Source of the DNA: Candidatus Bathyarchaeota archaeon
GTDB taxonomy: Archaea; Thermoproteota; Bathyarchaeia; Bathyarchaeales; DTEX01
DNA: 35,247 nucleotides
Reading direction: 5' to 3'
Assembly: GCA_018396655.1 (NCBI GenBank)
Contig: JAGTQF010000011.1
Span: 1-35,247, forward strand
Made by a program: the position numbers and the translations under genes
In this document: one piece after another, positions 9,854 to 33,666 of the stretch
Position numbering within the stretch: position 1 is the stretch's first letter
Layout: each line of letters opens with the position of its first letter
Notes under the pieces: generated by a model
What the model was told of the DNA's origin: nothing
Databases searched by the model: none
Seen by the model: the letters and a program-made list of their open reading frames with translations, nothing else

Positions 9854-11147
9854 TGATTTCTACTCCCAGCAGACGCATATCTCTAATAAAATCTGGGTAG
9901 GATTTATTTATGCATTCGGCATCATGTATGACTGTTTCCCCCTTAGCAGCCAGAGCCGCAACAGCACAAGCCATGGCTATGCGATGGTCCCCATGAGGAT
10001 CTATCTCGGCGCCTCTCAATTCCCTTACACCGTAAATAATTATCTTGTCGTCTAAAACCTTTATCTTGGCTTTCATTTTTGAAAGCTCGGTTAGCAGGGC
10101 TTTAACTCTATCAGACTCCTTAAATCTAAGCCTCCCAACACCGCTAATAACAGACTTGCCTTCAGCCATGCATGCTAACACCGCGCATACTGGGACAAGG
10201 TCTGGATTATCCCTCATATCAACATCAAGCGGCTTCAGCGGTCCATCCGCACCCATAACCTCAATAAAATCTTCACCAACCCGCACATGTACTCCAAAAT
10301 CATGAAGAAGCCTAACTATAATACGGTCTCCCTGAAGGCTCCTCCTGGGAAGATTCTCTATTCTTACACGCGAGCTAGTTATGGCTGCTGCAGCCATTAG
10401 GAATGCGGCCGAAGAATAATCCCCCTCAATATAATAGTTGTGCAACCTATACATCTGCCCGCATGGTATATGAAAGACCCTTCCATCGCCGGTGACTTCA
10501 ACCTTTATCCCATGCCTATTAAGCACATCCAACGTTACATCAATATAGGGCCTGGACTCTAAGGGGGTCGTGAGAACTATATCCGTATCATTCTCAGCCA
10601 TAGGTGTGGCGAAGAGCAAGCCCGAAATAAACTGTGAGCTCACATCCCCCCTAATACTGGCCCTCCCACCCCTTATCCCACCGCCAAAAACAACTATGGG
10701 TGGGCATCCATCCATCCTAGTCGAATAACATTTTACACCCAACTGGCTTAAGGCATCTAGGAGTGGGCCCATAGGTCTCCTCCTAAGGCTCCTCCCACCA
10801 GTCAAAACTGATATTCCATCGGCCAGAGCGCAGACTGGCGTAATAAATCTAATTGTCGAACCAGACTCTTTGCAGTCGATTATATCTTCTGGGGTTTTAG
10901 GCCTAGAAATCCCCAAAACCCTGAGTGCTCCACCACTTTCCTCACTTATCTCAGCTCCAAGCATACGGCAAGCATTAATTGTTGCCAGAGTATCATCACA
11001 TATAAGTGGGTTATGTATTGTGGAGGTGCCCTCAGAGAGCGCGGAGGCTATGATAGCCCTATGTGTATAAGCCTTTGAGGGCGGTGCCCTAACTAAACCC
11101 CTTAAACAAACCCCGCCTTTAACAATTAGGTCCGTCAACTCTTCCAC
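9843..11147 (-). CDS. aroA: 3-phosphoshikimate 1-carboxyvinyltransferase (EPSP synthase)
   Basis: APPSKAYTHRAIIASALSEG; CKESGSTIRFITPV; RLRFKESDRVKAL; DPHGDHRIAMACAVAAL. Confidence 0.96.
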   Translation of the reverse strand: MEELTDLIVKGGVCLRGLVRAPPSKAYTHRAIIASALSEGTSTIHNPLICDDTLATINACRMLGAEISEESGGALRVLGISRPKTPEDIIDCKESGSTIRFITPVCALADGISVLTGGRSLRRRPMGPLLDALSQLGVKCYSTRMDGCPPIVVFGGGIRGGRASIRGDVSSQFISGLLFATPMAENDTDIVLTTPLESRPYIDVTLDVLNRHGIKVEVTGDGRVFHIPCGQMYRLHNYYIEGDYSSAAFLMAAAAITSSRVRIENLPRRSLQGDRIIVRLLHDFGVHVRVGEDFIEVMGADGPLKPLDVDMRDNPDLVPVCAVLACMAEGKSVISGVGRLRFKESDRVKALLTELSKMKAKIKVLDDKIIIYGVRELRGAEIDPHGDHRIAMACAVAALAAKGETVIHDAECINKSYPDFIRDMRLLGVEIIER

Positions 11148-11150
11148 CAG

Positions 11151-12014
11151 CTAAATTATCTTAGCCTTTTCACGGTTTATAGAGGTCTCGATTATCTCGC
11201 CGCCATACCTTTCTATCGCCCCTCGAATATCGCTCACTCTATCCTTTGGAGCAACAACAGCGACAGCGGGTCCCTTACCGGAGAGCCCAGCAGCTATAGC
11301 ACCGTTGGCCAGAGCATCTATTACTATATTAGGGTTATAGCCCAAAACCGCTGAGTATAATATTCCGTTGATTGTCATAGCACGCCAATAATCGCCGAGA
11401 AGAGCCATCCTATGTATAGCCTTAACTTCATCGGCTATTACCCTCATCCTCCTAACATCAGACTTTGCTGTATAAGACTTCTCTCTGGGAACGTGAACCA
11501 AAATGACATAATCCTCTTCGGGCTGAAAGCACTTAAGAATCCTCCGCCCAAGATTATCCGTCACTACTATATTCCCAAAGTATGAGGCGCATGCGTCATC
11601 AAATGCTCCAGTAACGGTTACGCCAGCCTCAATAGACGCATCAACACCAATATTAACCACCGTTAAATCATCGGCATTTTCATTCAACGCTGATACGGTA
11701 GCCAGCGCGATGGCATTAGCCGCAGCACTACTACTCTTCAATCCTCTAGCAATCGGAATATTAGATTTAGTCTCAACATACGCGCCATACTCACCCTCAA
11801 GATTAAAGTGCCTTAAAACCCTCCTAACAACCATCTCAATCAATATTGTGCTTTCAGAGGGGTCTGAAAGTATCTTGCCCTCAATTCTTCCAGGCTCATT
11901 TGTCAGCCTAACAGTAGCCTCGGTTCTGAGGCTCACGCCTAACGCCGCCCCTAAACCACATGATATAGCATTAACTATTGTGACAGCGCCATAAGCTACA
12001 GCCTTACCAATCAT
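11151..12014 (-). CDS. aroK: Shikimate kinase, archaeal GHMP-kinase type
   Basis: GHMP ATP-binding motif NIPIARGLKSSSAAANAIALA; AAGLSGKGPAVAVVAP; located in an aro operon. Confidence 0.93.
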   Translation of the reverse strand: MIGKAVAYGAVTIVNAISCGLGAALGVSLRTEATVRLTNEPGRIEGKILSDPSESTILIEMVVRRVLRHFNLEGEYGAYVETKSNIPIARGLKSSSAAANAIALATVSALNENADDLTVVNIGVDASIEAGVTVTGAFDDACASYFGNIVVTDNLGRRILKCFQPEEDYVILVHVPREKSYTAKSDVRRMRVIADEVKAIHRMALLGDYWRAMTINGILYSAVLGYNPNIVIDALANGAIAAGLSGKGPAVAVVAPKDRVSDIRGAIERYGGEIIETSINREKAKII

Positions 12015-12903
12015 CCTTCATCCCTCTATTGTACCCCTCAGCCTCACGCATCTTTTTTAACGCAGCTTCCTTCATAACCTCTACCGGCGCCCTCATACCA
12101 GTCCATATCTCAAATGATGCTGCTCCCTGATGTATCAACATTGAGAGGCCATCAATAGTCTTTGCACCAGCAATCCTCGCCTCCCTAATAAGCCTAGTTT
12201 CAAGTGGCTCATAAATTATGTCAAAAACCGTGAGATTACTATGTAAAAAATCACATCTGACGGGGGTTTCAGAGTCATTGGGCTTCATCCCGATAGAAGT
12301 CGCATTGATAAGTATATCAGCATCCTTAAGCTCCCTCTCAAGATTCCGGTCGGCCAGCTCTCCAGCCTTAACATTAACCAAATCGCCAAGAGCATCACGT
12401 ATGTTGCGTGCCAAATCCACAGCTCTCTCCACAGTCCTATTCAATATGATAAGCTCACGTGCATATTCAGCCAGCGTGAAAGATATGGCCCTAGAAGCAC
12501 CGCCAGCTCCAAGTATGACAATCTTCTTGCCAGAGGGGTCGACTCCGGCATATCTCAGAGCATTTAAAGCCCCAACTCCATCAGTCGTATAGCCTACAAG
12601 TCTTTCATCCCTATTAAGAACGGTGTTTACTGAGCCAATTCTTCTCGCACTCTCGTCCAAAATGTCAAGATACTTAATTATGCTGATTTTATGCGGCATT
12701 GTAATATTTAGTCCATAAATGCCAAGCCCCCTAACACCCAGAATCGCCTTCTCTAGATTTTCAGCGCTGACATTAAATGCCACATAAACATAATCTAAGC
12801 CCAGATGCTCGAATGCCGCATTCTGTATTGTTGGGCTGAGCGAATGCCAAACAGGGTCTCCTATTAAAGCGCAAACCCTAGTCCTACCAGATATACCTAT
12901 CAT
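12004..12903 (-). CDS. aroE: Shikimate dehydrogenase
   Basis: TRVCALIGDPVWHSLSPTIQNAAFEHLGLDYVYVAF; NITMPHK; GAGGASRAISFTLAEY; INATSIGMKP. Confidence 0.96.
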   Translation of the reverse strand: MIGISGRTRVCALIGDPVWHSLSPTIQNAAFEHLGLDYVYVAFNVSAENLEKAILGVRGLGIYGLNITMPHKISIIKYLDILDESARRIGSVNTVLNRDERLVGYTTDGVGALNALRYAGVDPSGKKIVILGAGGASRAISFTLAEYARELIILNRTVERAVDLARNIRDALGDLVNVKAGELADRNLERELKDADILINATSIGMKPNDSETPVRCDFLHSNLTVFDIIYEPLETRLIREARIAGAKTIDGLSMLIHQGAASFEIWTGMRAPVEVMKEAALKKMREAEGYNRGMKDDW

Positions 12904-13610
12904 TCAACACCAAGCCTCCCATAAATCTCCCTCAAATCCTCTATGGTTAATTGACCTGACGCAGTTTCAAATCCCACGCCAAGAGATGCGTAAGTAAACG
13001 ATGCGCCAAAAATGGGTGATAAAACTCTAGAAAGCAAACCATATCTCCCCATCGCGAAGCAAATCACATCATATTTTTGGCTAACCTCATACGTGAGAAT
13101 TAGGCATTTAATACTATCATCGAGGCCATTTGCCATAGTAACAACTTTACATATATCCGCCCCAGCTTCAACCTCAGCCCTAACAATCCGCTCAAGCTCA
13201 GAGAGACTTGGCGTTGAATTAAAATCGTGGAAAGAGATTATGACTCTCGCCCCATAAGTCTTAACAGCGCCAACAACATCCCTTAACCCCTCCGTAACTA
13301 ATTCAAAATCAACGTATGTGAATCCAGCCTCTGCAGCTTTAAGGAGAACGTTAATCCTTTGCTCCTCACTTAGATTCCACATGCCGCCTTGTCCAGCGTG
13401 CCTATTAGTTGCTATAAGCGGAACAGACGTATATTTAACGAAATCTTTCAACCTATCTAGGGCATCCAGCAGTTCAGAACCCATATAATCTAAGCGCAAC
13501 TCAATTATATCTGCACCGCTCTCCTCAGCTCTCCGAATCATAGCGAAGGCTTCTCGAAGGCTTCTGGCTGGTATCGGCACACAAACCCTAATTTTCCTCA
13601 CATCCACCAC
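12900..13610 (-). CDS. aroD: Type I 3-dehydroquinate dehydratase
   Basis: GADIIELRLDYM; SFHDFNSTPSLSEL; ADICKVVTMA (Schiff-base Lys); GASFTYASLG; 4-nt overlap with aroE. Confidence 0.94.
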   Translation of the reverse strand: MVDVRKIRVCVPIPARSLREAFAMIRRAEESGADIIELRLDYMGSELLDALDRLKDFVKYTSVPLIATNRHAGQGGMWNLSEEQRINVLLKAAEAGFTYVDFELVTEGLRDVVGAVKTYGARVIISFHDFNSTPSLSELERIVRAEVEAGADICKVVTMANGLDDSIKCLILTYEVSQKYDVICFAMGRYGLLSRVLSPIFGASFTYASLGVGFETASGQLTIEDLREIYGRLGVE

Positions 13611-17094: not shown

Positions 17095-18912
17095 TTAAGA
17101 TGGAACCTGAATCTCCATTTTTCTTTGTCCACCTATTTGAATTTCATAGAGCTTTGCGTAGATTCCTCCTTTCCTCAAAAGCTCCTCATGCGTTCCCTCC
17201 TCAACAATCCTGCCGCCCTCCAAAACTATAACCCTATCAGCCAAAAAAGTTGTAGATAGCCTATGAGCAATTATTATACATGTCCTTCCCTCAAGGAGTC
17301 TTTTAAGAGCCTCTTGGAGTAGACTTTCAGTGTAAGGGTCAACGCTGCTTGTTGCCTCATCTAAAATCACTATCTTAGGTTTTCTGAGGAGCGTTCTAGC
17401 AATATTTATCAGCTGTCTCTGGCCGACAGATAAATTTCCACCTCCCTCTGAGACCACAGTGTTAAGGCCGTTTGGAAGTGTTTCTATAATTGGCTCAAGC
17501 CCTAAATCTTTTATGACATTCACGATTTCTTCGTCTGTAGCATCCGGCTTACCATAACGAATGTTCTCCAAAACGGTGTCTTTAAATAATATTGGCTCTT
17601 GCGGGACCAGAGCCATCTGGCTCCTAAGAGACTTCATTTTAATGGTCCTTATATCCACACCGTCTATAAGTATGCGCCCCTCTTGTGGGTCATAGAGTCT
17701 CAGTATGAGATTCGCCAAAGTTGTTTTGCCAGCTCCAGTTGGCCCTACAACAGCCAATATTTCGCCAGGATTGATTTTGAGGTTAAATTTCTCGAAGACG
17801 TTCGTCTCATCACCATATCTGAAGCTCACGTTCTCCATGATTATTTCACCCTTCGTAATTTCAAAGTCTATGGCATTATCCGCTTCCCTTACAGTTGGTT
17901 TAGTCTCTAAATACTCGAATACTCTCTCAGCAGCCGCGAGGGCTGATTGAAGCATATTATAGTAAACTGTTAAAGTTATCAGCGGGTTAAAGAACATCTC
18001 CACATAACTATAGAATGCTATTAATGTGCCCACGGTTGCCCTACCATTAATAATCATGTATCCTCCCCAGAATATTAGGAGCGCAACTGTAGCGGCCCTT
18101 ATAAGGCTTAGAACTGGACGTGTAAGAGCCATTACAAGTGTCGCCTTTAGATTTGCGCGCATAGTCTCATAGCTTACTCTTTCAAAGCGCCTGAGATTCT
18201 CTCTATCCCTCTCGGAGAATGACTGTGATACCCTTATGCCCGAGACTGTCTGCTCAATGTTTGATGTGAGTTCACCAACCTTAGCTCTAACTTCTCTATA
18301 AGCTCTATAGCTCCTTCTAGCTAGAAAAATCACCGAGACGATTATTAGGGGTATCAATGATAGGGTTATTAATGTAAGTTCGATGTTTAAGGTTAGCATG
18401 GCAATAAGGGCGCCAATAATTGTGAGGGCATTAAAGACAGCATCTATAAAACCTGTCGTAGCCGTTTGACCAACAGCTTCAACATCACTTGTAAACCTTG
18501 ATATTATTTGGCCAGCTGGCATTGAGGAGAAGAAGGCGTAATCCAATTCTATGGAATGCGCAAAGAGTGAAGAACGCAGGTCGTAGAGAAGTCTCTGAGT
18601 CAACCAAGCAACGCTATAGCTTCTAACGACACCTAATATCCAACTGCATAGGGCTATAACCGCGATGATGAGAGCATAATATGTGATTGCAGTGATATTC
18701 CTAGCCATTATCCCCTCATCGACGATTCTCTTACCAAAATATGGCGATATTACATTTAAAATCAAGACTAGCGAAGCCGCGGCCACGAAAATTAGTACTC
18801 TAGCCTTATATCTCCATACTAGCTTTAATAGCCTCATTATTATTTTCAGTGGGGAACCTTTTGGTTTTCCCTCAGCCCCTTCCCTTGCATATCTACCTAT
18901 TATCCATCCCAA
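17095..18912 (-). CDS. ABC exporter half-transporter (TMD-NBD), canonical catalytic Glu, signature LSVGQ
   Basis: Walker A GPTGAGKTT, NLSVGQRQL, VILDEATSSVD, IIIAHRLST; six-TM export domain. Confidence 0.94.
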   Translation of the reverse strand: MGWIIGRYAREGAEGKPKGSPLKIIMRLLKLVWRYKARVLIFVAAASLVLILNVISPYFGKRIVDEGIMARNITAITYYALIIAVIALCSWILGVVRSYSVAWLTQRLLYDLRSSLFAHSIELDYAFFSSMPAGQIISRFTSDVEAVGQTATTGFIDAVFNALTIIGALIAMLTLNIELTLITLSLIPLIIVSVIFLARRSYRAYREVRAKVGELTSNIEQTVSGIRVSQSFSERDRENLRRFERVSYETMRANLKATLVMALTRPVLSLIRAATVALLIFWGGYMIINGRATVGTLIAFYSYVEMFFNPLITLTVYYNMLQSALAAAERVFEYLETKPTVREADNAIDFEITKGEIIMENVSFRYGDETNVFEKFNLKINPGEILAVVGPTGAGKTTLANLILRLYDPQEGRILIDGVDIRTIKMKSLRSQMALVPQEPILFKDTVLENIRYGKPDATDEEIVNVIKDLGLEPIIETLPNGLNTVVSEGGGNLSVGQRQLINIARTLLRKPKIVILDEATSSVDPYTESLLQEALKRLLEGRTCIIIAHRLSTTFLADRVIVLEGGRIVEEGTHEELLRKGGIYAKLYEIQIGGQRKMEIQVPS

Positions 18913-20665
18913 CCTTCACGGCCTCCCTAAGTAGTGATTCTTGATGGGCGAACTGAGCATTATAGAGTCTTGCATATACGCCCCCGATTCTCATCAACTC
19001 CTCATGAGTTCCTTCCTCAACGATTCTGCCATTATCTAAAACTATTATTCTATCAGCCAGCTTAAGTGTTGAAAGTCTCTGAGTCACTATAAGCACTGTT
19101 CTGCCACTAACAAGATTCTTCAAAGCCTCAACAACCATCGCCTCTGTTTCAGCATCAAGATTTGACGTCGGATCATCCAGTATGAGTATTTTTGGATTAA
19201 GTATTAAGGTCCTCGCTATCGCTATTCTCTGTCTCTGCCCACCAGAGAGTGTTACACCTCTCTCAGCAACATCTGTGTCATAGCCCTTAGGCAAACTAGC
19301 TATAAAATCATGTATACCAGCAGCCTTGGCAGCCTCAATCACCTCACTCATGGATGCACCTGGCTTACCATAAGTTATATTATCTTTTATTGTTCCCGCA
19401 AAGAGCGCGATATCTTGATGGACAATCCCGATATGTCTACGAAGGGATTTAATTTTAACATTTCTTATATCTACACCGTCTATAAGTATACGTCCCTTCT
19501 GCGGGTCATAAAACCTCGGTATAAGCTTGATAAGCGTGGATTTGCCTGAACCTGTGGGACCGACTATCGCAACCCTCTCTCCAGGTTTAACCTCAAGACT
19601 TACATCTACTATAACAGGCTTGTTCGGGTCATAACCAAAAGAAACATTCTCAATCTTAATATGTCCCTTAACATCTTTAAGTTCTATTGCGTTAGGCTGA
19701 TCCTTAACCTCAGGCTCCTTATCTAGCACATCAAATATTCTAGATGCTGAAACTGATGCCCTTTTATAATCTAGGACAAAGAAACCCAGCCCAACGAGAG
19801 GCCAATTGAGCATTGAAAGATACAATAAGAAGGCAACTATATCTCCTACGTTTAGAATGCCTGCTGCAACCTTAAATCCACCATACAAGTATACTACGAT
19901 CTGTATGACTGCTGAAATAAGTCCTATAGACGGCCATGATAATGATGCATATCTATGAAATTTCATGTTTAAATTATATAGGTTATCAAGTTTGGATCTG
20001 TAAACTCTTCCAAAAACATCCTCAACTCCAAGAGCCTTCAAAACTTTAATTGTTGAAGTATATTCTTGAATTGCGCTATTAAATTGGCTCATCGCGCTCC
20101 AGCTACCCTCAAGTATGGGATAAACCTTCCTGTTAAAGAGAATTGTTATTAGTGCTAAAAGTGGCAGTAGTGATGCTGCAACGAGAGTTAACTCAGCATT
20201 CAGATTTAAGAGTATGTAGAGGGCTATTGAGGCTGAGAAAATAGCGTTTAATAGAGGCATACTTGCAAAACTTATGAAGCGATTTAAATTGTCCATATCG
20301 CTTGTCACCCTCACGATTATCTCACCAACATCTACCCTATCATAAAATCCATAGGAGAGCTCGTGAAGATGCCTATAGAGGTCTAACCTAAGCCTATATA
20401 TGGTTCTCTGAGCTATAAGCTCAAAGAGATATCTGACGAGAAAAGCTAAGGCTCCCTCCAAAAACGTTAGTATAACGACAGCTAGCGAGAGAGGCAGTAG
20501 CTTGCTCGCATCATATGCCATCACGGAATTCAAGAGTTCTCTAACATACCAAGGTATCATCATGGCCAAAAGTGTGGAAGCAAAAACCATACCTATGGCG
20601 AATACTAAGAGCTTCCATTCTTTAATTACATATTTATAGGTTCTAAATATCGGTGAGCTAACCAT
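18893..20665 (-). CDS. ABC exporter half-transporter (TMD-NBD), degenerate Walker B/H-loop
   Basis: Walker A GPTGSGKST, LSGGQRQRIAIART, LILDDPTSNLD, LIVTQRLST; overlaps the downstream half-transporter by 20 bp. Confidence 0.94.
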   Translation of the reverse strand: MVSSPIFRTYKYVIKEWKLLVFAIGMVFASTLLAMMIPWYVRELLNSVMAYDASKLLPLSLAVVILTFLEGALAFLVRYLFELIAQRTIYRLRLDLYRHLHELSYGFYDRVDVGEIIVRVTSDMDNLNRFISFASMPLLNAIFSASIALYILLNLNAELTLVAASLLPLLALITILFNRKVYPILEGSWSAMSQFNSAIQEYTSTIKVLKALGVEDVFGRVYRSKLDNLYNLNMKFHRYASLSWPSIGLISAVIQIVVYLYGGFKVAAGILNVGDIVAFLLYLSMLNWPLVGLGFFVLDYKRASVSASRIFDVLDKEPEVKDQPNAIELKDVKGHIKIENVSFGYDPNKPVIVDVSLEVKPGERVAIVGPTGSGKSTLIKLIPRFYDPQKGRILIDGVDIRNVKIKSLRRHIGIVHQDIALFAGTIKDNITYGKPGASMSEVIEAAKAAGIHDFIASLPKGYDTDVAERGVTLSGGQRQRIAIARTLILNPKILILDDPTSNLDAETEAMVVEALKNLVSGRTVLIVTQRLSTLKLADRIIVLDNGRIVEEGTHEELMRIGGVYARLYNAQFAHQESLLREAVKVGMDNR

Positions 20666-22230: not shown

Positions 22231-23649
22231 CTATCGGGTGGTAAGGGTTGTTATGCTATCAGATGGAAGAAGGACCTCAAGTAAACCATCTCTAACCACT
22301 ATGTTACCAATATATTTGCAATTCTCGTTTCTTGATGTGCGATATTGCTTTAAAGTCAATGATGGTGTGATATTTTTTAAGGATATTTTAGCATTAACGT
22401 CCGTCATTCCCCTATTTATCAATACTATTGTGATGTCACCGCTCTCCTCATTTAGATAGGCTGAGGCTAGAATTTGAGGTCTATCGCTTCTTGCTTCTAC
22501 CCTAACAGAGCCTGGACTTATGAACTTAAAGAATTGCTTAACAGCATAATATTTAGGGGTTATTTTATAGTTGTCTCCTTGAGAGCTTATACTAATCAGC
22601 CCAGTCTCCCTATACCAAAATAGCTCCCAAACCAAGTAAACTGAGGCATTTCCATACACCAGCGTATTATGAATGTGTTGAGCCGTATAAAGAGCTTCCT
22701 CATAGGTGCCTGCATATGGAAAATCTAGGTAGCTATATTCCGTCATCCACAAAGGCCTACCATACTTAGCACAATAACCAGAAATCGTTTTAAGCCATCC
22801 TATCCCCTGATCGGGATTAAAGAATTGTATATCGTATAGGTGCACAGCGAAGACATCAACATACTGAGCTGCCTCGGGATCAGACATTATTGTTTCTAAG
22901 TAATTGAGGGCAGCGTAAACGCCAGAAGTTTCTGGAACAACTATCTTTGCTGTTATCCCTTCTCTAGCGAATTTTCTGCCAACAACCTTTATCAATTCCT
23001 TTAGTTGCTTGGGTGTATAGATGCAAGTCTCCCAAGTAGCAGTATAATCTGGCTCATTTTGTATGCTTACCCAACCTATGTCTATGTCATGATATGTCTT
23101 GTAACCCAAAATATAGGCGGACAACCACTCCGCGAATTCCTCATACATTTCTGGCAGAAGATAACCATCATTCGTCTCCTGCGTATTATTTTTCATCCAG
23201 GCTGGTGGGCTCCAGACGGAAGCTATAAACTTTGTAACACCCCTCTTTTTAGCCTCAAGGGCATTCCAAACTTGGTCTTGGTCTGTTGTAAAGTCGAATG
23301 CTTCCCAATTGAAATTATTTGGGTCATCGTCATCATTTTCACTCTCAATCTTAGTCCACACTCTCAGCCTATAGATGCTTATTCCAAGGTCTGAAAAAAG
23401 TAGGTCTGTAGCCTCCGTTCTAAGCGGCTCTTTTAGATTCCTTAATAAATGCTCGTAGTAGGCTCCTGAACCACCAAATCCCTCAATTCTTTGATATTTT
23501 CTTGCCCCATCAACCTCGATTATTGATTCTATAAGCGTTACACCAATCCTATTTTGAACAAGAAAATATAAGAATAGACTTCCTATTATCACTATTGCCG
23601 CTAAAGTAAGTGTAAGAGTCTTCCATTTCATTTTAATGTCACCATGCAT
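22231..23649 (-). CDS. Membrane-anchored glycoside hydrolase, GH30-like
   Basis: N-terminal TM helix; RIEGFGGSGAYY; WVSIQNEPDYTATWETC (acid/base Glu); RPLWMTEYSYLD (nucleophile Glu); C-terminal beta domain ITIVLINRG. Confidence 0.8.
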   Translation of the reverse strand: MHGDIKMKWKTLTLTLAAIVIIGSLFLYFLVQNRIGVTLIESIIEVDGARKYQRIEGFGGSGAYYEHLLRNLKEPLRTEATDLLFSDLGISIYRLRVWTKIESENDDDDPNNFNWEAFDFTTDQDQVWNALEAKKRGVTKFIASVWSPPAWMKNNTQETNDGYLLPEMYEEFAEWLSAYILGYKTYHDIDIGWVSIQNEPDYTATWETCIYTPKQLKELIKVVGRKFAREGITAKIVVPETSGVYAALNYLETIMSDPEAAQYVDVFAVHLYDIQFFNPDQGIGWLKTISGYCAKYGRPLWMTEYSYLDFPYAGTYEEALYTAQHIHNTLVYGNASVYLVWELFWYRETGLISISSQGDNYKITPKYYAVKQFFKFISPGSVRVEARSDRPQILASAYLNEESGDITIVLINRGMTDVNAKISLKNITPSLTLKQYRTSRNENCKYIGNIVVRDGLLEVLLPSDSITTLTTR

Positions 23650-23756: not shown

Positions 23757-26700
23757 ATGGTCTCAACTGGTAAGTGGGGAAAAATATCTTTATCTCTAGC
23801 TCTAACGATATTTCTAGTAGCCTCCTACATAATGATAGTGCTTTTATTATCTGCGAAACCGGCTGTTGCTCAGGAAATCACCTTTGACTACTTTACACCA
23901 GCATTAAAAGCAATTAATATAGATGAGCTTAAGGGCTTTGTAGAGGACCTTGTCGGTTTTGGCTCAAGGTTTACTGGGTATCCTGGGTGTTATGCTGCAG
24001 CCGATTATATTGAGAGCAAGTTCCGCGAGTTTGGTTTGTCACCCGTCTTAAGACACAGCTTTAGGACTCCCATACCAGTGGATGAGGGCGCCTATATAGA
24101 GACATCCTTAGGTGAGAGAATAAAAGTTTATCCAATCTACCCGAATAGGGTTTGTCCACCGCAGACTCCGCCTGGAGGCTTAACTGGACGTTTAGTTTAT
24201 GTGGGCTCGGGCGAATATGAGGACTTTGATGGTAAACCAATAGAGGGCAGCATAGTTTTAATGGACTTTAACACGCAATATCATTGGGTTACTGCGGCTA
24301 AGTTCGGTGCTAAAGCTGTTGTCTTTCTTGAGCCAGAATATACAACAACGGTTGAGGCCCGAATGAAACTGATTGAGAGCGTAGCATGGAACTTTCCAAG
24401 AGTATATGCTAGGGCTGAGGAGTCAAGGAGACTTCTACAGCTGGCTGAGAGGGGAGAGATAGTTACATTGGTTTCTAATATGAAGTGGCGCAATGTTGAA
24501 TCCTACAATATTATTGGTTATTTAAAGGGAACAGCTTATCCCGATGAATATGTGCTGATAACAGCGGCATATGATAGTTTCTCATTTATACCAAGTCTAG
24601 CCCCTGGGGCTAGAGAATCTATAGGAACAGCTATAATGCTCCAGCTTGCTAAGTTCTTCGCTACGCATCCAGGTTCAAACAAATATACGCTGGTTTTCAT
24701 AGCCTTTTCTGGAACAAATCAAGGGGTCATTGGTTCAAGATGGTTTATGAAGGAATATGTAGATAATAAGTGGAGTGAATGGGGCAGCAGAGTGAAGTTC
24801 CAGATGAACATAGACATAAACGACATAAACAAATATCTTATGCCATATCTCGTTATGGGGTGGACATATGGGTGGAATGAGGGTGTAGCGCCTTGGCTGA
24901 CAAACTATTACGATTGGTTCTTCAAGACCTTACTCCCAGATTTAGCTGAAAAGCTTAATAGACCCTATCTTGCCAAAGAAGACCCAGCTATAGGTAGGCA
25001 ATGGATTCCCAAAGAAATGTTCGGGACTGGAGGACCTGGTCACGGCATAATTTATGAAGATTACTATGGCTCCCCACTTAGATATGCTAACAGCGAACCT
25101 CTACTGATTTTGGGCGGTCCTGGGATGACATGGGGTAACCTATGGGCATACAGTAATGATTATTGGACACCATTCGACTTGCCGGACAACATTAACTGGG
25201 ACAATATAAAGTTTAAGCTCGAAGCCCTCTATCCAATAATCTACGCCACGGTTAATATAGACCTTTCAGCCCTCATAGGGACTTGGGTTCCTAAGGCTCC
25301 AGGCCAGTACTATCCTAAGTGGGTCGATGTAGTTGGTAAGACAATGGAATACAATATGTACTCTGGATGGTGGGATATACCGGTTAAGAATGCCATAATA
25401 GTTTACGGGAGGGGCAGTCCATCCGCTTTAGGCTTCCGGCCATATCAGCTTCTCTTGCCATCTTATGCCATGTCGGATGAGGATGGAGATGTATATATAC
25501 CCGGCCTGTTGCAGATGGAGAGGTTAATGATGGGCAGCTATGGTCTAGAGGCCTATGTTATTGATGAAGAGACGGGAAATGTTATATATGCTCCGGCGTA
25601 TGGAACATACTGGTTTAGGGGAAGAGTTGACGCTTCTTCTATAGGTACAAGCTTCCAGGTAAACACTTATGATAGGATGCAGAACTTTGGCATATATACG
25701 CTGTTCAAGTGCGGTTCTATAGTATTATTCGACATATGTGACATATACTATAGGAGCGGTTCAATAGATGTTGGCGGTGGCGGCGGTCTCTCATTGACAG
25801 TTAATGATTTCGTATCTCATGCTCCGCCTGACCAGTGGAGTTGGGACTTCTACATGTATGGTGGGTATGGTGTTAGCGTCGCAGTGGCTTTTGTTCCTCC
25901 GGAGAAACCTGTAGAATTTCTTGTTCATACAACTTACACTAGAAGATATCCAATGCTGGTTCTGACTAATTCGAGTGATGAGTATCCATTGGGCGTAGGC
26001 TTCACTGTTAAAGAGGGAGAACAGCATGCGATAATTCATACAACGCTTAGATTCGCCCAAGACATGTACAGACTGAATTTAGATAGGATAAAGACGCTTT
26101 CAGCCGGGGGCATAACTCCCTCCGGCTACACCGATACAAAGGAGCTCTTTGAAGAAGCGCTATTGGCTCTCAAGAACCGTGAATATAGCAAGCTTGAGGC
26201 GCTATCAAACAGGTTACTGGTCTATGAAAGGAATAATTATTCAACCTTAAGGGCGTCGATTGAAGATGCAATATATGCGATAACATTCTTTGGCTTGACC
26301 CTAGTGCCCTTCTCAATCCTTACTGAGAGGCTCTTCTTCCAGTCTAGTGGCGTAAAACGCGTAATGATTACGCTTTTTGGCTTCGTAGTTCCTCTGGCTT
26401 TCCTATCATTTGTTCATCCGGGCTTTAGGCTTGCAACAGACCCCATAATGGTTATTATAGGCTTCTTAGTTGTGGTTCTAGTAATGCCCCTAATAGCAGT
26501 GATATTAAACACCGTCCTCTCAGCTATAAGGCGCTTAAGAATCAAAGTTGCAGGGGTTCACTGGGTTGAGATGCCAAGGTTCTCTGTCGCTCTACTTGGA
26601 TTCTCGACTGGCATCTCACATATGAGAAAACGAAAGCTGCTGACTGGCTTAACGCTTATTGCAGTAATACTTGTAACGTCATCTACCTCGGCATTTACAT

Positions 26701-28412
26701 CGCTGGGCTCTCTAAGAGTAATTAGAGAGGAATCTACTGGAAGAGCAGCGCTTTATAATGGAATTTTGTTCCATCATCAAGACTATTCTGGCGGAGGCTT
26801 TGAGGATTACGGTGGATTAGGTGGTGCTCAATCACGACCGCAGGTAGGAGAGAGATTCTTAGCCGAGTTTAGAGTATTTTATGGAGACAAGGTTATAATG
26901 GCTCCTAGAGCATGGTCATACATCGGATATAGTATGCGCGGAACATATCTGCTTAACGAAAGCGGCCTAGTCACATATGACTATGAAAACAGAAAGGCGG
27001 TAATGAGGCCGATAAGAGGCTTCTTAGGGATGACTCCTGAAGAGAAGTATGTTACTGGCGTAGACAAGACAATAATTGATGGCTTCTGGTTTACGGAGAG
27101 CATGGCCGATAAGATGGTGGCGATAATATCAAAGAAGATGGCTGATGGACTGGGAGCTAAGGTAGGCTCAACAATTATGGTTTCGGGCTTCGCCTTCAAA
27201 GTTATAGGAATAATCGATGATAACGCCTTCTTTGAGATAAAAGACTTAGACGACCTTCAATTGACAATATGGGATGATAGAGTTCCGGGTTACTCCGGCA
27301 GGGTTGCTCCAGACGAGCTTATAATAATCCCATATAAGACGCTCTTAACAATATCTAAAGGCTGGATTGTTAGCGTGGCGATAAAATTTAAGCCGGAATA
27401 TGCAACTTACGACTCAATTATAGCGGTTGCAAGAGAGATATATAAGCAGACTGATGCATTCTCGCCAGTACCACTGAATATTGGTGTTGAAGGCGTGGTT
27501 TGGACTCTATCTCCGCGCTCAGTCGTTACAGTCTTTGGGTGGCAGCAGCAGATTATACCAGTGATTATATCTGCAATGGTAATACTTGGTCTTATGATAA
27601 GTTCTATAGAGGAGAGGAGACGCGAGATACAAGTGCTAAGCACGGTAGGTTTATCACCATTCCATGTAGCCTTTCTATTCCTCTCTGAGAGCGTCACATA
27701 CTCGGTGGTTGGTGGCATAATAGGCTATATATTGAGCATGATAATGGCTATGCTTGGAGGAATAGTTGGCGTTGAGGGGCAGCTCAACTATGCCTCTACA
27801 GTTGTGGTTACAACAGTATCTATTATGATGCTGGCAATATTAGGGGTGACAATTTATCCAGTGATTAGAGCTGCAAGAATGATAACTCCTTCACTTGAAA
27901 GGAGATGGAAGGCACCGCCACCAAAAGGTGATATATGGGAGATACCGCTGCCATTCTTTGTAACCGAAGATGAGGAAGCTAACGGAGTCCTGTGCTATAT
28001 ACATGAGCTCTTAATGGGGCATCTAGCAGAGGATTCGGAAATATTTAGGCTAAAGCCACCTGTAAAGATTGTGGAGCAGAAAGACCCCAAGATGCATGTT
28101 AGGGCATTAACTTTCGAGTCTTTTCTGGCACCATATGACCTTGGCATAACTCAGTATGTTGAGTTCTTGGACATTAAGAGTATTGATACCAAGAGACACA
28201 ACTTTTCACTATATATAAAGAGGCTTACTGGACCAAGAGGCTCATGGATAACATTTGGCAAGGGATTCATAGATTTAATGAGAAAGCAAGTTCTCTTATG
28301 GAGAAGCTTCACACCCAAAGAGAGGATTGAATACCAAAAGAGGTTTAAAGACTTATTGCTAAAAATTGAGAGTGTAAGTTCGCGTGTTGAGGAGGCTGGG
28401 AAGAGTGAGTGA
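23757..28412 (+). CDS. M28 peptidase-like (probably inactive) ectodomain fused to an FtsX/MacB-like permease domain
   Basis: N-terminal TM; PA-like region; AADYIESKFREFGLSPVLRHSF and VFIAFSGTNQGVIGSRWFMKEY resemble M28. C-terminal half has multiple TMs with ISSIEERRREIQVLSTVGLSPFHVAFLFLSESVTYSVVGGIIGY, characteristic of FtsX. Confidence 0.82.
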   Translation: MVSTGKWGKISLSLALTIFLVASYIMIVLLLSAKPAVAQEITFDYFTPALKAINIDELKGFVEDLVGFGSRFTGYPGCYAAADYIESKFREFGLSPVLRHSFRTPIPVDEGAYIETSLGERIKVYPIYPNRVCPPQTPPGGLTGRLVYVGSGEYEDFDGKPIEGSIVLMDFNTQYHWVTAAKFGAKAVVFLEPEYTTTVEARMKLIESVAWNFPRVYARAEESRRLLQLAERGEIVTLVSNMKWRNVESYNIIGYLKGTAYPDEYVLITAAYDSFSFIPSLAPGARESIGTAIMLQLAKFFATHPGSNKYTLVFIAFSGTNQGVIGSRWFMKEYVDNKWSEWGSRVKFQMNIDINDINKYLMPYLVMGWTYGWNEGVAPWLTNYYDWFFKTLLPDLAEKLNRPYLAKEDPAIGRQWIPKEMFGTGGPGHGIIYEDYYGSPLRYANSEPLLILGGPGMTWGNLWAYSNDYWTPFDLPDNINWDNIKFKLEALYPIIYATVNIDLSALIGTWVPKAPGQYYPKWVDVVGKTMEYNMYSGWWDIPVKNAIIVYGRGSPSALGFRPYQLLLPSYAMSDEDGDVYIPGLLQMERLMMGSYGLEAYVIDEETGNVIYAPAYGTYWFRGRVDASSIGTSFQVNTYDRMQNFGIYTLFKCGSIVLFDICDIYYRSGSIDVGGGGGLSLTVNDFVSHAPPDQWSWDFYMYGGYGVSVAVAFVPPEKPVEFLVHTTYTRRYPMLVLTNSSDEYPLGVGFTVKEGEQHAIIHTTLRFAQDMYRLNLDRIKTLSAGGITPSGYTDTKELFEEALLALKNREYSKLEALSNRLLVYERNNYSTLRASIEDAIYAITFFGLTLVPFSILTERLFFQSSGVKRVMITLFGFVVPLAFLSFVHPGFRLATDPIMVIIGFLVVVLVMPLIAVILNTVLSAIRRLRIKVAGVHWVEMPRFSVALLGFSTGISHMRKRKLLTGLTLIAVILVTSSTSAFTSLGSLRVIREESTGRAALYNGILFHHQDYSGGGFEDYGGLGGAQSRPQVGERFLAEFRVFYGDKVIMAPRAWSYIGYSMRGTYLLNESGLVTYDYENRKAVMRPIRGFLGMTPEEKYVTGVDKTIIDGFWFTESMADKMVAIISKKMADGLGAKVGSTIMVSGFAFKVIGIIDDNAFFEIKDLDDLQLTIWDDRVPGYSGRVAPDELIIIPYKTLLTISKGWIVSVAIKFKPEYATYDSIIAVAREIYKQTDAFSPVPLNIGVEGVVWTLSPRSVVTVFGWQQQIIPVIISAMVILGLMISSIEERRREIQVLSTVGLSPFHVAFLFLSESVTYSVVGGIIGYILSMIMAMLGGIVGVEGQLNYASTVVVTTVSIMMLAILGVTIYPVIRAARMITPSLERRWKAPPPKGDIWEIPLPFFVTEDEEANGVLCYIHELLMGHLAEDSEIFRLKPPVKIVEQKDPKMHVRALTFESFLAPYDLGITQYVEFLDIKSIDTKRHNFSLYIKRLTGPRGSWITFGKGFIDLMRKQVLLWRSFTPKERIEYQKRFKDLLLKIESVSSRVEEAGKSE

Positions 28413-30303
28413 GCAAACTAGTGTAGCCCTACGCGGTCGAGGATTAACCTGGCGCTCTATACTTGCTCTCCTCTACATAACGTTTGTATTCCAGTCTTCT
28501 ATGGCCTTCATGCATCTGGTGACGGGTTCAACTCCCTCTTATTCCGCTGTTCAATGGGCTACAATCCTACTATTCATAGAGTTGGCAGCGGTCTTCGCTG
28601 GGACTAAACTGACAATATTTGAGGCTGTAATAATTTATTTAGCGGCTGGGCAATCGATAAAATACTGGTGGTTCCTAGCCCCTACGCTTGGGAATCTTGC
28701 TCATCCAGGATGGATATACCAGATATATTTGAGGTATTCACCGGTCTCTATTGCTCTGGGGCTTGCTGATAAAATTCCGTGGTTCTATGCTCCAGAATCT
28801 TACGAGGTTTGGGTTCAGAGAACATTGTTTCATTCCGAATGGACTATAGTGGCCATTTGGACAGCTGCATATTGGCTTGCAGCTATGTTTGGGGATTTCG
28901 CAATGAGCATACTAGGTTACCACCTATATGTACGTGTGGAAAATCTGCCATTCCCATATGCTGACCCGATAGTTGATACGACAAGAACTCTTATAGAAAG
29001 AGAATGGAAGAGAATGAGTATACTTGGTGCATCATCAATTCTAGGTTTCGTTTATGGTCTTCTGCTTTATACTCTCCCGCTAACTGGAGAAGTCTTCCTA
29101 AATGTTAATCTTAGAACTATACCAATTCCATGGGTAGACTACAATTATCTAATACAGCAGGCTTTGCCCGGGGCTTCACTTGGTATTGCTACCGACCTAG
29201 CGGTTATGGCGACAGGCTTCATACTGCCATTTAATGTTGTTTTGGGCTCACTAATAGGTTCCATCGCCATATATGTTGTTGGAAACCACCTACTAGTTAG
29301 GTACGGTGTAACTGGCTTCGCTCAGGAATACACCTATGGGATGGATATACAGACTTGCTGGCAGCGCTCTGTATTATGGGCTTGGGCAATGCCGATGGTC
29401 GGAGTTGCAGTGGCTGTGGGCGTGGTCCCATTACTACTTAGGCCCAGAGAGACCTTTAAGGCCTTTAAGGCTTTTAGGCGTGTTACTGAGACCGCTGCTG
29501 AGTTTAATGTGGGGCTAGTTATAGGCTTATTCTTGGCAGCAACTCTTGGTTTATCCTTCGTTGATTATTGGCTCGCGCCGGACTTCCCACTAGTCTACCT
29601 AATATTACTTAATGTTGTTATACCATTCCTAACAATGCTTGTGGCTGTTCGCGGTGAGGGACTAGGAGTAAGCATTGGAGTGCCCTATGTAAGGGAACTC
29701 GTGATTAAAGCAACTGGGTATCCGGGCATAAACGCATGGTTTGTTCCAATATATACTTCGTCTTCTTGGGTTACTGGATTTAAGGTGTGCGATATGACCA
29801 ATACGAGGATGAAGGATGTAATACTTGGCATGTTCATAATATTCCCAGTAGCCCTGTTTATAGGGTACATAACGGTTCAGTCATTATGGAGGGTTGCTCC
29901 AATACCATCCTCAGTTTATCCAGGAGTACTTTACGCATGGCCAGTGCAAGCGACATTTCAATCCATCTTTATATCACCGGAGGCAGCGGTTTTCTTCCAG
30001 GTTCCCTATATGCTTTACGGGTTCATTGCCGGCAGCATATTGTATATCGTGGGGCACGTGCTACATATAACGCCCCTAGTAATTGGAATAGCTGGTGGAA
30101 TCGGCTCTCCAACCCCATCGGCTCTCTCAATCTTCATTGGAGCAGTAATCGGTCTATTAATGCAGCGCCTTATCGGCAGAGACTTCTGGAGAAGCATTCG
30201 AGGCATAATCTACGCTGGAATCTTACTGGGTGAGGGACTGGCGGTTACAATAGGCACCGGATTAGCTGTGATAATGAGAAGCATGTGGGCAGCCCCATAC
30301 TAA
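28405..30303 (+). CDS. Large polytopic membrane protein, OPT-like (possibly DUF6785/DUF6784 family)
   Basis: Many TM helices; VRVENLPFPYADPIVDTTRTL resembles the OPT-type FP.A motif. GAGGAGG at 28389-28395 precedes GTG at 28405, a better start than 28384 given by the ORF track. Confidence 0.6.
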   Translation: MSEQTSVALRGRGLTWRSILALLYITFVFQSSMAFMHLVTGSTPSYSAVQWATILLFIELAAVFAGTKLTIFEAVIIYLAAGQSIKYWWFLAPTLGNLAHPGWIYQIYLRYSPVSIALGLADKIPWFYAPESYEVWVQRTLFHSEWTIVAIWTAAYWLAAMFGDFAMSILGYHLYVRVENLPFPYADPIVDTTRTLIEREWKRMSILGASSILGFVYGLLLYTLPLTGEVFLNVNLRTIPIPWVDYNYLIQQALPGASLGIATDLAVMATGFILPFNVVLGSLIGSIAIYVVGNHLLVRYGVTGFAQEYTYGMDIQTCWQRSVLWAWAMPMVGVAVAVGVVPLLLRPRETFKAFKAFRRVTETAAEFNVGLVIGLFLAATLGLSFVDYWLAPDFPLVYLILLNVVIPFLTMLVAVRGEGLGVSIGVPYVRELVIKATGYPGINAWFVPIYTSSSWVTGFKVCDMTNTRMKDVILGMFIIFPVALFIGYITVQSLWRVAPIPSSVYPGVLYAWPVQATFQSIFISPEAAVFFQVPYMLYGFIAGSILYIVGHVLHITPLVIGIAGGIGSPTPSALSIFIGAVIGLLMQRLIGRDFWRSIRGIIYAGILLGEGLAVTIGTGLAVIMRSMWAAPY

Positions 30304-30440: not shown

Positions 30441-30486
30441 AAATGTAAATAATAAAGTGGGAGTGAGGGAAAAGGAGGGGAATCTT

Positions 30487-32598
30487 TTGGCTGAAAAGGT
30501 TGTAGCCGTTATAAGACCTAGGGCTTATATCATTGGCGCTATTGCGGCCGCAATAGCCGTATTGGTCATGGAGTTCGTTGCGCTCTTCACTCCAGGCGGC
30601 ACACTATGGGGCCTGCATGGTGAGACATGGAGCAATGCTTGGATGTCTAATATGACGTTTGGTTTCTTCTGGCCGCTTCTTCTATCATCAATATGCGCCC
30701 TACTGGGAAAATATAATGTTATATCTAAGCAGGAGTTTGTGATTATCCTGACTATGGTTTGGACTACGTGGATGCTCCCAAGCTACTATGGTATACTCCC
30801 ATTGTTGACGGCTCTTGGGACAGCAAGGCAGATTCCGGCATTCCATAGATGGAACCTTGAGTATGCTAAGGACATTAATTGGCAGTTTGGGCCTGACCCA
30901 CTAAACCCCGCATTATGGGAGTCATGGATGTATGGAGGCCCAGTCCCATGGGCTGAGTGGATGCCAGCCCTAACATTCACCCTAGCAAGGCTCATACCAT
31001 ACTATTTAATGTACATGTTCTTTGCGACGTTATGGCGTAGGGAATGGGTTGATGTTGAAGCACTACCATTCCCACATGCAACGGCAGCATCAAAGCTGGT
31101 AGATATGGCGTTTGAGAAGGAGAACGGCTCAATAAAACTGTTCAGAAATATATGGCTTTGGCTGGGAGTCCTAATAGGGCTACTAGCAATATACCCATAC
31201 TGGATATGGACAATACCAGGACTAGGCATACCCATACCCTCCCACATGGGTAGAATAGGTGTTGATTACACGCCATACGTGATTATACCACTAGCAAACC
31301 TAAACTTCAACTTCGAACTATTCCTAATAGCCGGAGCAATACTAGTCCCAACCAAAACGCTATTCAGCTACGTAGTAACAAGCATAGCTGTAATGTGGGT
31401 TTGGTGGCCAATAATGAACTATCTCGGCCTCTGGGAAGCCCAGTCCGCTGGCACTACCGGCTATGCTCACTCGCTCTACCATAACATTTGGAGGGGCACA
31501 TCTACTGGCCCAATGATGTCGGCATGGAAGAGCGAATGGGGGCCGCCGGCACTGCTAGCTATAGGAGCGTTATTTGCGTTCATATTTGTTCCATCATTCA
31601 CAACATTCAGGGGTGAATTGGTCAATTGCCTTAAGGCAATTGTCGGTAAAGCCCCACCAGAAGTCGAGGAAAGGGAACCAATGAAATATAGGCTCATGTT
31701 TCTGCTCTTCATAGTATTTCTACTCATATCAGTGGGCTTATGGTACTACGCAAGCTTAGGAACACTGCCAATAATATTCGGGATAATATACTATATATTA
31801 AACGGATTGTATTACATGGGCAGAGCTAGGACCGCAGCCGAGTTCGGTCTAGTTATGGATGGCTGGAACGACCAGATATTTGCCCATAACTGGGATAGTA
31901 TGGCTAAGGAGTGGTGGCTCGCCGACCCCGCCTCACCATTCTACATAAGAGACCCAGCAGTCAGATTCCTACCATTAAAGACGGAGTGGACGTGGTTCAC
32001 AACGACCATGAGGACTGCTCCAATGGCATCCCTACTAGAAATGTATAAGATTGGTTCGCTTCAGGGGGTTAGGTCAAAGCATATACTGACAAGCACAATA
32101 ATTGCTATGATAGTCGGCTTAATAGTCGCGATATTCGCTTATCTGCCATTATGGTGTAGTTATGGCGCAACAAACCTATCAATATTCAATTATACTGGTG
32201 CGCCACACAACTACTTCCAGAGAGCACCAACATATGGATCCATAAGTGAGGTCGGGGATTACTGGAGGAGTGGCTTAGGCCATCAGCCTCAGCTCAAGCA
32301 TTGGGTCCAGATAATCGTTGGGGCCGCAATAGTGACCGTTGTATACATATTACATGCTAGGTTCCCATGGTTCCCACTCAACGCAGCCGGAGTAACATTA
32401 GGCTTCTGCTGGATTACCTATACTGTGACTGTTCCAGCCTTGGTTGCTTTGGTGGCTAAGTATGTGATATTGAGGATTGGTGGTGCAAAGGTCTACGAGG
32501 AGATGGTCGTCCCATTCGCAATAGGCGCAATGGCATGCACAGGCATAGCCATATTCTGGGGAGTCCTATACAACTACGCCGCCCTACTAACAGCATAA
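30487..32598 (+). CDS. Large polytopic membrane protein, OPT-like (paralogue of the preceding gene)
   Basis: Many TM helices; VDVEALPFPHATAASKLVDM aligns with NLPFPYADPIVDT of the previous protein. GGAGGGG just upstream of TTG 30487 (ORF track gives 30457). Confidence 0.6.
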   Translation: MAEKVVAVIRPRAYIIGAIAAAIAVLVMEFVALFTPGGTLWGLHGETWSNAWMSNMTFGFFWPLLLSSICALLGKYNVISKQEFVIILTMVWTTWMLPSYYGILPLLTALGTARQIPAFHRWNLEYAKDINWQFGPDPLNPALWESWMYGGPVPWAEWMPALTFTLARLIPYYLMYMFFATLWRREWVDVEALPFPHATAASKLVDMAFEKENGSIKLFRNIWLWLGVLIGLLAIYPYWIWTIPGLGIPIPSHMGRIGVDYTPYVIIPLANLNFNFELFLIAGAILVPTKTLFSYVVTSIAVMWVWWPIMNYLGLWEAQSAGTTGYAHSLYHNIWRGTSTGPMMSAWKSEWGPPALLAIGALFAFIFVPSFTTFRGELVNCLKAIVGKAPPEVEEREPMKYRLMFLLFIVFLLISVGLWYYASLGTLPIIFGIIYYILNGLYYMGRARTAAEFGLVMDGWNDQIFAHNWDSMAKEWWLADPASPFYIRDPAVRFLPLKTEWTWFTTTMRTAPMASLLEMYKIGSLQGVRSKHILTSTIIAMIVGLIVAIFAYLPLWCSYGATNLSIFNYTGAPHNYFQRAPTYGSISEVGDYWRSGLGHQPQLKHWVQIIVGAAIVTVVYILHARFPWFPLNAAGVTLGFCWITYTVTVPALVALVAKYVILRIGGAKVYEEMVVPFAIGAMACTGIAIFWGVLYNYAALLTA

Positions 32599-32772: not shown

Positions 32773-33666
32773 ATGGAGAAGATGCTTTTAAGCGGGTTAA
32801 GAAACCCCCTCCTAGTAATAGCTGCCATAGCCTTCTTTTTAGATTCCAACGTATTATCTGCTGATCTTCGGGAGTGCGGAAGAGCTATTGTTATCGACCC
32901 ATTTAATAGAGAATTTAATTTAATGTCTCTGGACGTATATGAAATGTACATGAGGAGCATAATTTATAGTCTTGAGAGGGCTGGCTATGCTGTAGATTAC
33001 TATAAGGATGAAAATGTAACGATAGATCTTCTTAAGAGACTTGATGATGAGGGATATGACATTGTCTATATAAATTCGCATGGATTCATCGATTCTCGGG
33101 GGTTATTCGCGCTATTCGTTAGGGAGAAATTAAATTCAGAGAACGCGCTTCTATATCAAGACGATATTGCAGAGAACCTTATAGGATATCTTAAGGAGGG
33201 GGATTTGGCGGGATATCTCTATGTAACGCCGGGATTCTTTTTACGATATGGAAATGATAGTCGTCTTCCCGGAACAATTATTTTTGTGGACGCATGCTAC
33301 TCCGGAAATAATACGAGTCTAGCGGACGTTTTCCTCGTTTTAGGAGCTAGTTGCTTCATAGGCTGGGATAAAGTTGTTAATGTAATACATGGGATAATGA
33401 TGGACGGGCTTTTCTTTCATGAGACATGTAAGTATAATAGGACTGTTGAGGAGGCACTCCGTAAGACTAGGAGAGACCCAGAGAGTGGGGCATCACTAGT
33501 CTATTTCGGAGACGGCTCCCTAAGAATTCAAAGGGTTGCATTAAATGCGGAATCTGAGGAAATCCCTAATTTCATTTTAGGAATAATACTCATCTTAATA
33601 TTTTCAGCTTCAGCTTGTATAAGCTACATTATGCTATCAAAAGTTCTTGGAAAAGGAAAATATTAA
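32773..33666 (+). CDS. Membrane-tethered caspase-like (clan CD) protein
   Basis: N-terminal signal/TM; DIVYINSHGF (His-Gly after a beta strand) and GTIIFVDACYSGNN (catalytic Cys context); C-terminal TM FILGIILILIFSASACISYIML. Confidence 0.6.
   Translation: MEKMLLSGLRNPLLVIAAIAFFLDSNVLSADLRECGRAIVIDPFNREFNLMSLDVYEMYMRSIIYSLERAGYAVDYYKDENVTIDLLKRLDDEGYDIVYINSHGFIDSRGLFALFVREKLNSENALLYQDDIAENLIGYLKEGDLAGYLYVTPGFFLRYGNDSRLPGTIIFVDACYSGNNTSLADVFLVLGASCFIGWDKVVNVIHGIMMDGLFFHETCKYNRTVEEALRKTRRDPESGASLVYFGDGSLRIQRVALNAESEEIPNFILGIILILIFSASACISYIMLSKVLGKGKY

Follow-up and report, generated by a model that had tools for sequence, protein, structure and literature searches.

An M28-type pseudopeptidase ectodomain joined to an FtsX-type permease and genetically partnered with OPT-superfamily transporters in Bathyarchaeia

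The window (the whole stretch of DNA that was analyzed, 35,247 nucleotides from a 1.32-Mb Bathyarchaeia genome, G000) encodes a membrane-anchored fusion protein whose ectodomain combines an M28 fold with loss of the catalytic ligands, and which is therefore a predicted M28-type pseudopeptidase. Gene order and co-occurrence identify two genes for OPT-superfamily transporters as its genetic partners. We consider it somewhat probable that the ancestrally inactivated M28 ectodomain is the receptor or gating part of a three-protein system with this transporter pair.

The fusion gene is a single open reading frame, and the coordinates of its parts and of its partner genes are collected in Table 1. 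The protein matched the Pfam families Peptidase_M28 (PF04389; 5e-13), FtsX (3e-9), MacB_PCD (2e-6), and Nicastrin (1e-5), and more than 60 homologues share a similar architecture; near relatives numbered only two in a single scan of a genome collection, one of them at 81% identity. Hydropathy averaged over the family placed a transmembrane (TM) segment at residues ~15-25, an ectodomain of ~800 residues, and TM segments near 841-855, 872-885, and 897-916 in the first half of the chain, and a TM segment at 968-981, an extracellular part, and three more TM segments (near 1264-1278, 1311-1330, and 1350-1364) in the second. We read this pattern as two MacB-type units, each consisting of a TM segment, a large outer domain, and three further TM segments; by this topology, the protein would contain a duplicated FtsX-type permease whose first unit bears the M28-like domain as its outer part. 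The FtsX (PF02687) and MacB_PCD (PF12704) matches above the Pfam cut-offs both lie in the second unit, which has the same order of segments by hydropathy, and residues 561-835 of the ectodomain gave no family match. The original prediction had assigned the M28-like domain to positions 23757-25260, equivalent to residues 1-501; this range covers most of the M28 part but stops short of the end of the ectodomain near residue 835 and leaves out the FtsX-type permease.

Table 1. Positions in the window of the fusion gene, its domains and former metal-site residues, and the adjacent genes.
Feature	Position	Strand	Evidence
M28-pseudopeptidase/FtsX fusion protein, 1551 aa (ATG 23757, stop 28412)	23757..28412	+	ORF; Pfam M28, FtsX, MacB_PCD
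Hydrophobic segment at the N terminus (residues 13-33), signal anchor or TM1 of first FtsX unit	23793..23855	+	Family-averaged hydropathy
M28-fold ectodomain with PA-like insert, residues 38-560	23868..25436	+	AlphaFold2 model, Foldseek, profile match to 2ek8
A271, equivalent of ligand H97, lost	24567..24569	+	Alignments
R286, equivalent of bridging ligand D117, lost	24612..24614	+	Alignments
T320 (general base E151) and N321 (ligand E152), both lost	24714..24719	+	Alignments
D353, equivalent of ligand D179, retained	24813..24815	+	Alignments
W470, equivalent of ligand H256 in YHTxxDT, lost	25164..25166	+	Alignments
Strand-rich second ectodomain part, residues 561-835	25437..26261	+	Secondary structure of model
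Three TM helices (841-855, 872-885, 897-916) closing first FtsX-like unit	26277..26504	+	Hydropathy, alignment; FtsX assignment inferred
Second FtsX unit: TM 968-981, MacB_PCD-like extracellular part, FtsX TM helices to 1364	26658..27848	+	Pfam PF12704, PF02687; hydropathy
C-terminal part, residues 1376-1551, predicted cytoplasmic	27882..28409	+	Topology inferred from hydropathy
OPTa transporter	28384..30303	+	Two in-frame GTG candidates (28384, 28405), each giving overlap with end of fusion gene; OPT fold
OPTb transporter (DUF6785 + DUF6784)	30457..32598	+	Pfam
CHAT-like / clan CD-like peptidase, secreted and probably membrane-anchored	32773..33666	+	CHAT 0.008, homologue 9e-5

An AlphaFold2 model of residues 38-876, calculated from a 34-sequence alignment, had a mean pLDDT of 85 and a pTM of 0.86. 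In Foldseek searches of the PDB, its best matches were the M28 aminopeptidases 2ek8 (6e-24) and BSAP (~1e-23), followed by PaAP, transferrin receptor 1 (TfR1), and glutamate carboxypeptidase II (GCPII). TM-scores were modest (0.5-0.6 by target for the aminopeptidases) and rmsd values were 8-10 Å across several domains, indicating that the domain arrangement of the ectodomain differs from that of the aminopeptidases. A single-sequence search of the PDB gave TfR1 as the best match (4e-10), and the family profile matched 2ek8 across most of the M28 region (8.6e-36), with Nicalin also among the matches. The ectodomain has the alpha/beta fold of family M28 with its motifs in order, and the scaffold is intact, as had been claimed from the sequence.

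In the numbering of Aeromonas aminopeptidase (1amp), E151 is the general base. In that enzyme, Zn1 is bound by D117, E152, and H256, and Zn2 by H97, D117, and D179 (PMC7522609). The window protein keeps one of these five ligands, the D179 equivalent D353 (in NIDIND), and has Ala, Arg, Thr, Asn, and Trp at the other four and at the general base, so a canonical dinuclear zinc site cannot form in its ectodomain and the protein falls outside the active M28 peptidases. Substitution of the metal site had originally been read from the strings AAYDSF, GARESIG, FSGTNQGVIGS, and SNDYWTPFD, all of which occur in the protein; that reading is correct for four ligands and the base but passed over the retained D353. 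Loss of the C-terminal ligand likewise holds, but the pairing of SNDYWTPFD with the usual SDHxPF was a misalignment: the His ligand sits in a YHTxxDT motif, which is YWTPFD in the window, and SDHxPF aligns with NSEPLL, ~20 residues upstream.

We aligned 66 fused homologues, sampled across the phylum, and surveyed their ligand positions. E151, E152, and H256 were retained in none of them, and H97, D117, and D179 in 22, 15, and 52, respectively. The canonical zinc site was absent from all 66; no fused homologue kept more than three ligands, and the nine that keep exactly the Zn2 triad (H97, D117, D179) might still bind metal. The E151 position is His in 56/66 and the N118 position Glu or Asp in 64/66, and the D99 equivalent is invariant. 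The family signature reads A-[YH]-Y-D-S-W-S-x-V-P-x-L-A-P-G-A-x-[ED] and S-G-H-[WY]-Q; residues at the former metal positions vary between clades, and the window's clade deviates there (A/S, R, T, N), with Ala or Ser at H97, Arg at D117, Thr (T320) at the His site, and Asn at E152. The strong family-wide conservation of the D99 (Asp), N118 (Glu/Asp), E151 (His), and D179 (Asp) positions, together with the nine members that have the full Zn2 triad, would be compatible with a pocket rebuilt as a different enzyme or as a mononuclear metal site. We judge such altered catalysis very unlikely, as the substitutions at H97, D117, and the His site leave the window member without this alternative set of residues.

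Free-standing M28 proteins from the same phylum served as controls in the same kind of alignment. All six positions were kept in 16 of 19, which excludes chance and misalignment as the source of the losses in the fusion family. In two of the other three the base is replaced by His: L165 otherwise keeps the five ligands, and L176 also carries Cys in place of D117. The third, L180, is a fragment that ends before the later sites and is too incomplete to judge. In L165 (1394-3172) and L176 (147-1949), WDGHE replaces the usual EE pair and E152 is kept. A complete zinc site hidden by misalignment of the window protein was considered and is ruled out at the level of the alignment, in which the free-standing controls have their ligands in place.

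In a midpoint-rooted FastTree phylogeny, the 66 fused and 18 free-standing proteins formed separate groups (supports of 0.88 and 1.0), and the simplest reading of this separation is that E151, E152, and H256 were lost before the fused family radiated. By these comparisons, the loss of ligands appears to be ancestral, with a single origin, rather than a product of decay. Recent decay in one genome, another candidate explanation, was ruled out by the presence of the loss in all relatives. The original prediction had spoken of several independent losses, a view at odds with losses of E151, E152, and H256 that all 66 relatives have in common; of the two outcomes that it had named as contradicting it, a complete zinc site formed by alternative residues did not emerge from the alignments, and homologues with the canonical ligands did not appear among the 66.

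We calculated an entropy profile over 54 non-redundant family members in sliding windows along the domain. Residues 270-290, the former active-site loop, had a mean entropy of 1.31 bits compared to 2.30 bits over the domain, making this loop the most conserved stretch of the ectodomain (0.2 percentile of windows of the same length); the former EE pair lies in a block that ranked at 3.6% of windows, and the D179 and H256 blocks were ordinary. Such conservation of a dead active-site loop argues for a selected, non-proteolytic role, in line with the original prediction of binding or sensing instead of proteolysis. Simple decay of a once active enzyme into a functionless domain might account for the several different residues that substitute for ligands at some positions. 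This explanation is scarcely credible for a loss common to 66 members across the phylum, in intact reading frames and with an active-site loop more conserved than the rest. Conservation of the pocket and constant association with OPT-type transporters together suggest that the ectodomain has a binding or sensing function.

The AlphaFold model of the OPTa protein had a pLDDT of 85 and aligned by Foldseek to barley YS1 (7wst) with a TM-score of 0.70 over 656 columns. OPTa thus has the OPT fold; its sequence search against the PDB returned nothing useful, and only the fold comparison gave a match. The window's OPTa has no direct match to PF03169 (OPT), which 11 of 33 OPTa homologues match (up to 9e-16). 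The window's OPTb matches DUF6785 and DUF6784 only, and PF03169 is matched by 4 of 30 OPTb homologues (best, 1e-11).

Among the 46 loci with neighbors on both sides, an OPT gene was the immediate same-strand neighbor of the fusion gene in 43, separated from it by <60 bases or overlapping it in 40 of these, and both OPT types were present in 38. We also scanned 300 genomes of the phylum for full-length fusion matches and for OPTa matches (E <1e-80) and counted the resulting lists by hand. The fusion was found in 39 genomes, OPTa in 39, and both in 38 (Fisher p ~7e-46, with phylogenetic relatedness left in); one genome had the fusion only and one had OPTa only. These two exceptions are G010, whose OPTa is no more than a disrupted remnant, and G142, where the fusion-type match lies in a frame of 1141 aa within a short contig. 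In distant relatives from one family (L130, L131), fusion and OPT genes are unlinked yet co-occur in the genome. Distance matrices for the M28 part, the FtsX part, OPTa, and OPTb correlated at 0.83-0.93, a value reached in 0 of 2000 permutations and one that is inflated by relatedness and includes within-genome paralogues; for distant pairs alone, correlations were 0.37-0.59. With such paralogues included, duplication appears to have involved the entire unit, and several diverged copies of the system occur per genome, which would fit different solutes. Gene order, co-occurrence, and divergence in step thus point to a genetic partnership between the fusion and the OPT transporters.

Some copies of these genes appear disrupted. 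In G010, the fusion is intact and has no OPT neighbors, and an OPTa remnant with several in-frame stops lies at G010:C53:24760-25272 (L179). OPTa matches with one in-frame TGA occur at G073:C5:20931-22814, G228:C4:42692-44596, and G090:C58:2848-4800, where the TGA may be a terminal stop or mark a disrupted copy.

A receptor or gating subunit for uptake fits the conserved non-catalytic pocket that faces outward, the diverged copies, and the constant pairing with two transporters. OPT-superfamily transporters carry peptides and metal chelates, and MacB and LolCDE, relatives of the FtsX part, act in mechanotransmission. In the system that we slightly favor, the inactive but conserved M28 pocket would bind an extracellular solute, the FtsX helices would transmit the binding event to the OPT pair, and the solute would be presented to the pair, or the pair opened, for uptake. 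The conformational relay by the FtsX part is proposed by analogy with MacB and LolCDE, and we infer the physical complex, solute binding, direction of transport, and any coupling to an ATPase. More tentatively, and as a possibility a little short of even, the loci may represent an undescribed archaeal class of uptake system, in which paired OPT-type transporters act under a pseudopeptidase receptor that forms half of a duplicated FtsX permease, with several solute-specific copies in each genome. If so, this class would be a receptor-coupled secondary importer that operates without a classical solute-binding protein.

Two other roles for the fusion protein have to be weighed against a receptor. 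The dead M28 domain and its permease-like anchor might instead stabilize, assemble, or sterically gate the OPT pair, with no transported solute in the old pocket. Nicastrin and Nicalin, which function with polytopic partners and are recovered here as a Pfam match and among the PDB profile matches, are precedents for such a scaffold, as is the wider habit of M28-like proteins of this sort to sit in multi-protein membrane complexes, and both the strict partnership and the in-step divergence with the OPT genes would follow from it. The Nicalin-TMEM147-NOMO assembly is one multi-protein membrane complex with an M28-like member (PMC7505659). A scaffold would not need the former catalytic loop to be the most conserved part of the ectodomain, and we regard this role as unlikely. 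Alternatively, the duplicated FtsX permease might work in the manner of MacB/LolCDE, as a mechanotransmitter that acts on lipids, peptides, or surface molecules and is driven by an ATPase encoded elsewhere, with the M28 domain selecting cargo and the OPT proteins supplying a related substrate. FtsX-type permeases normally require an ABC ATPase, and the lack of one beside most fusion genes also counts against the favored receptor system. The window's genome contains 30 ABC ATPase matches, and the FtsX and MacB_PCD matches, the coupling-type FtsX motif retained in the second unit, and a match to ADOP (TIGR03434; E 1.4e-4) would agree with an export or envelope machine. Such a machine is distinctly unlikely, however, because no ABC ATPase is encoded beside the fusion gene in most loci and the partners constantly found with it belong to a family of importer-type secondary transporters.

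We rate the components as members of known families and the M28 pseudopeptidase in a new membrane context as what is new. In the literature searched, which excludes most subscription journals, we found no published description of an M28-FtsX fusion or of a fusion/OPT combination, and no paper on DUF6785/DUF6784. The PA-domain M28 aminopeptidases AM-1 (2ek8) and BSAP (6hc6) share the fold, a PA-like insert, and the order of motifs with the fusion protein, which differs from them in lacking the zinc ligands and general base and in being a membrane-embedded FtsX fusion. The TfR1 ectodomain is itself an M28-type pseudopeptidase, in which a dead peptidase fold is used as a receptor. TfR1, the best single-sequence match, shares the PA plus M28 architecture, but the fusion protein is archaeal, is joined to an FtsX-type permease, and has no identified counterpart of the TfR helical dimer domain. 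With Nicastrin and Nicalin, the protein has in common an M28-like ectodomain, which in their case is part of a membrane complex with polytopic partners; here the partners are OPT transporters and the anchor is a multi-helix FtsX unit rather than a single helix. The MacB/LolCDE FtsX superfamily and ADOP share the twice-repeated order of TM segment, large ectodomain, and three TM segments as well as the FtsX and MacB_PCD matches, and ADOP duplicated orphan permeases, as their name implies, resemble most fusion loci in having no linked ATPase. Unlike these proteins, the fusion has an M28-like first ectodomain in place of MacB_PCD, and its ADOP score of 20 bits is far below the 622-bit cut-off and places it outside TIGR03434. 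The OPT superfamily (barley YS1; PF03169) is linked to the system by the OPTa fold and by the PF03169 matches of some OPTa and OPTb homologues, whereas two distinct OPT-like genes, one of them DUF6785/6784, with a constant pseudopeptidase partner set the system apart. Archaea, like animals (transferrin receptor, nicastrin), have thus turned the M28 aminopeptidase fold into a membrane module without catalysis, and the archaeal setting points to nutrient uptake. If the proposed mechanism is correct, it would extend the OPT superfamily by a receptor-dependent mode and offer a handle on uptake by uncultured archaea; DUF6785 and DUF6784 gain a likely context.

Enzymes encoded near the fusion loci point to no single substrate class and include pectate lyases, GH30, GH42M, GH127, GH130, URO-D, and GFO/IDH/MocA. 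GFO/IDH/MocA accounted for 11 of 200 neighbor genes and 6 of 195 genes in control regions of the same phylum (p = 0.32), and among the 25 top families listed neither it nor URO-D was significantly more common near the fusion than in control regions. A glycan-uptake operon was dropped as a reading of these neighbors, enrichment over control regions being unproven. In the window, a gene for a GH30-like glycosidase (22231-23649, minus strand) is divergent from the fusion gene, and it has homologues near the fusion in L009, L010, and L065. The CHAT-like peptidase encoded after OPTb has a C-terminal hydrophobic segment and HG and AC motifs read from its sequence; it adjoins the system in four related loci only, as an accessory of the window's subclade, and peptide uptake was dropped as a conclusion from its position for this reason. 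M28 proteins of ~680 aa adjoin OPTa in L173 (1221-3257) and L071 (14719-16773), and since the L173 copy has all canonical ligands, a probably active peptidase accompanies some copies of the system. Elsewhere in the window, the minus strand encodes a pair of MsbA-like ABC exporter half-transporters (17095-20665), with no apparent relation to the FtsX system, and a run of genes whose translations read as a shikimate pathway cluster (8753-13610).
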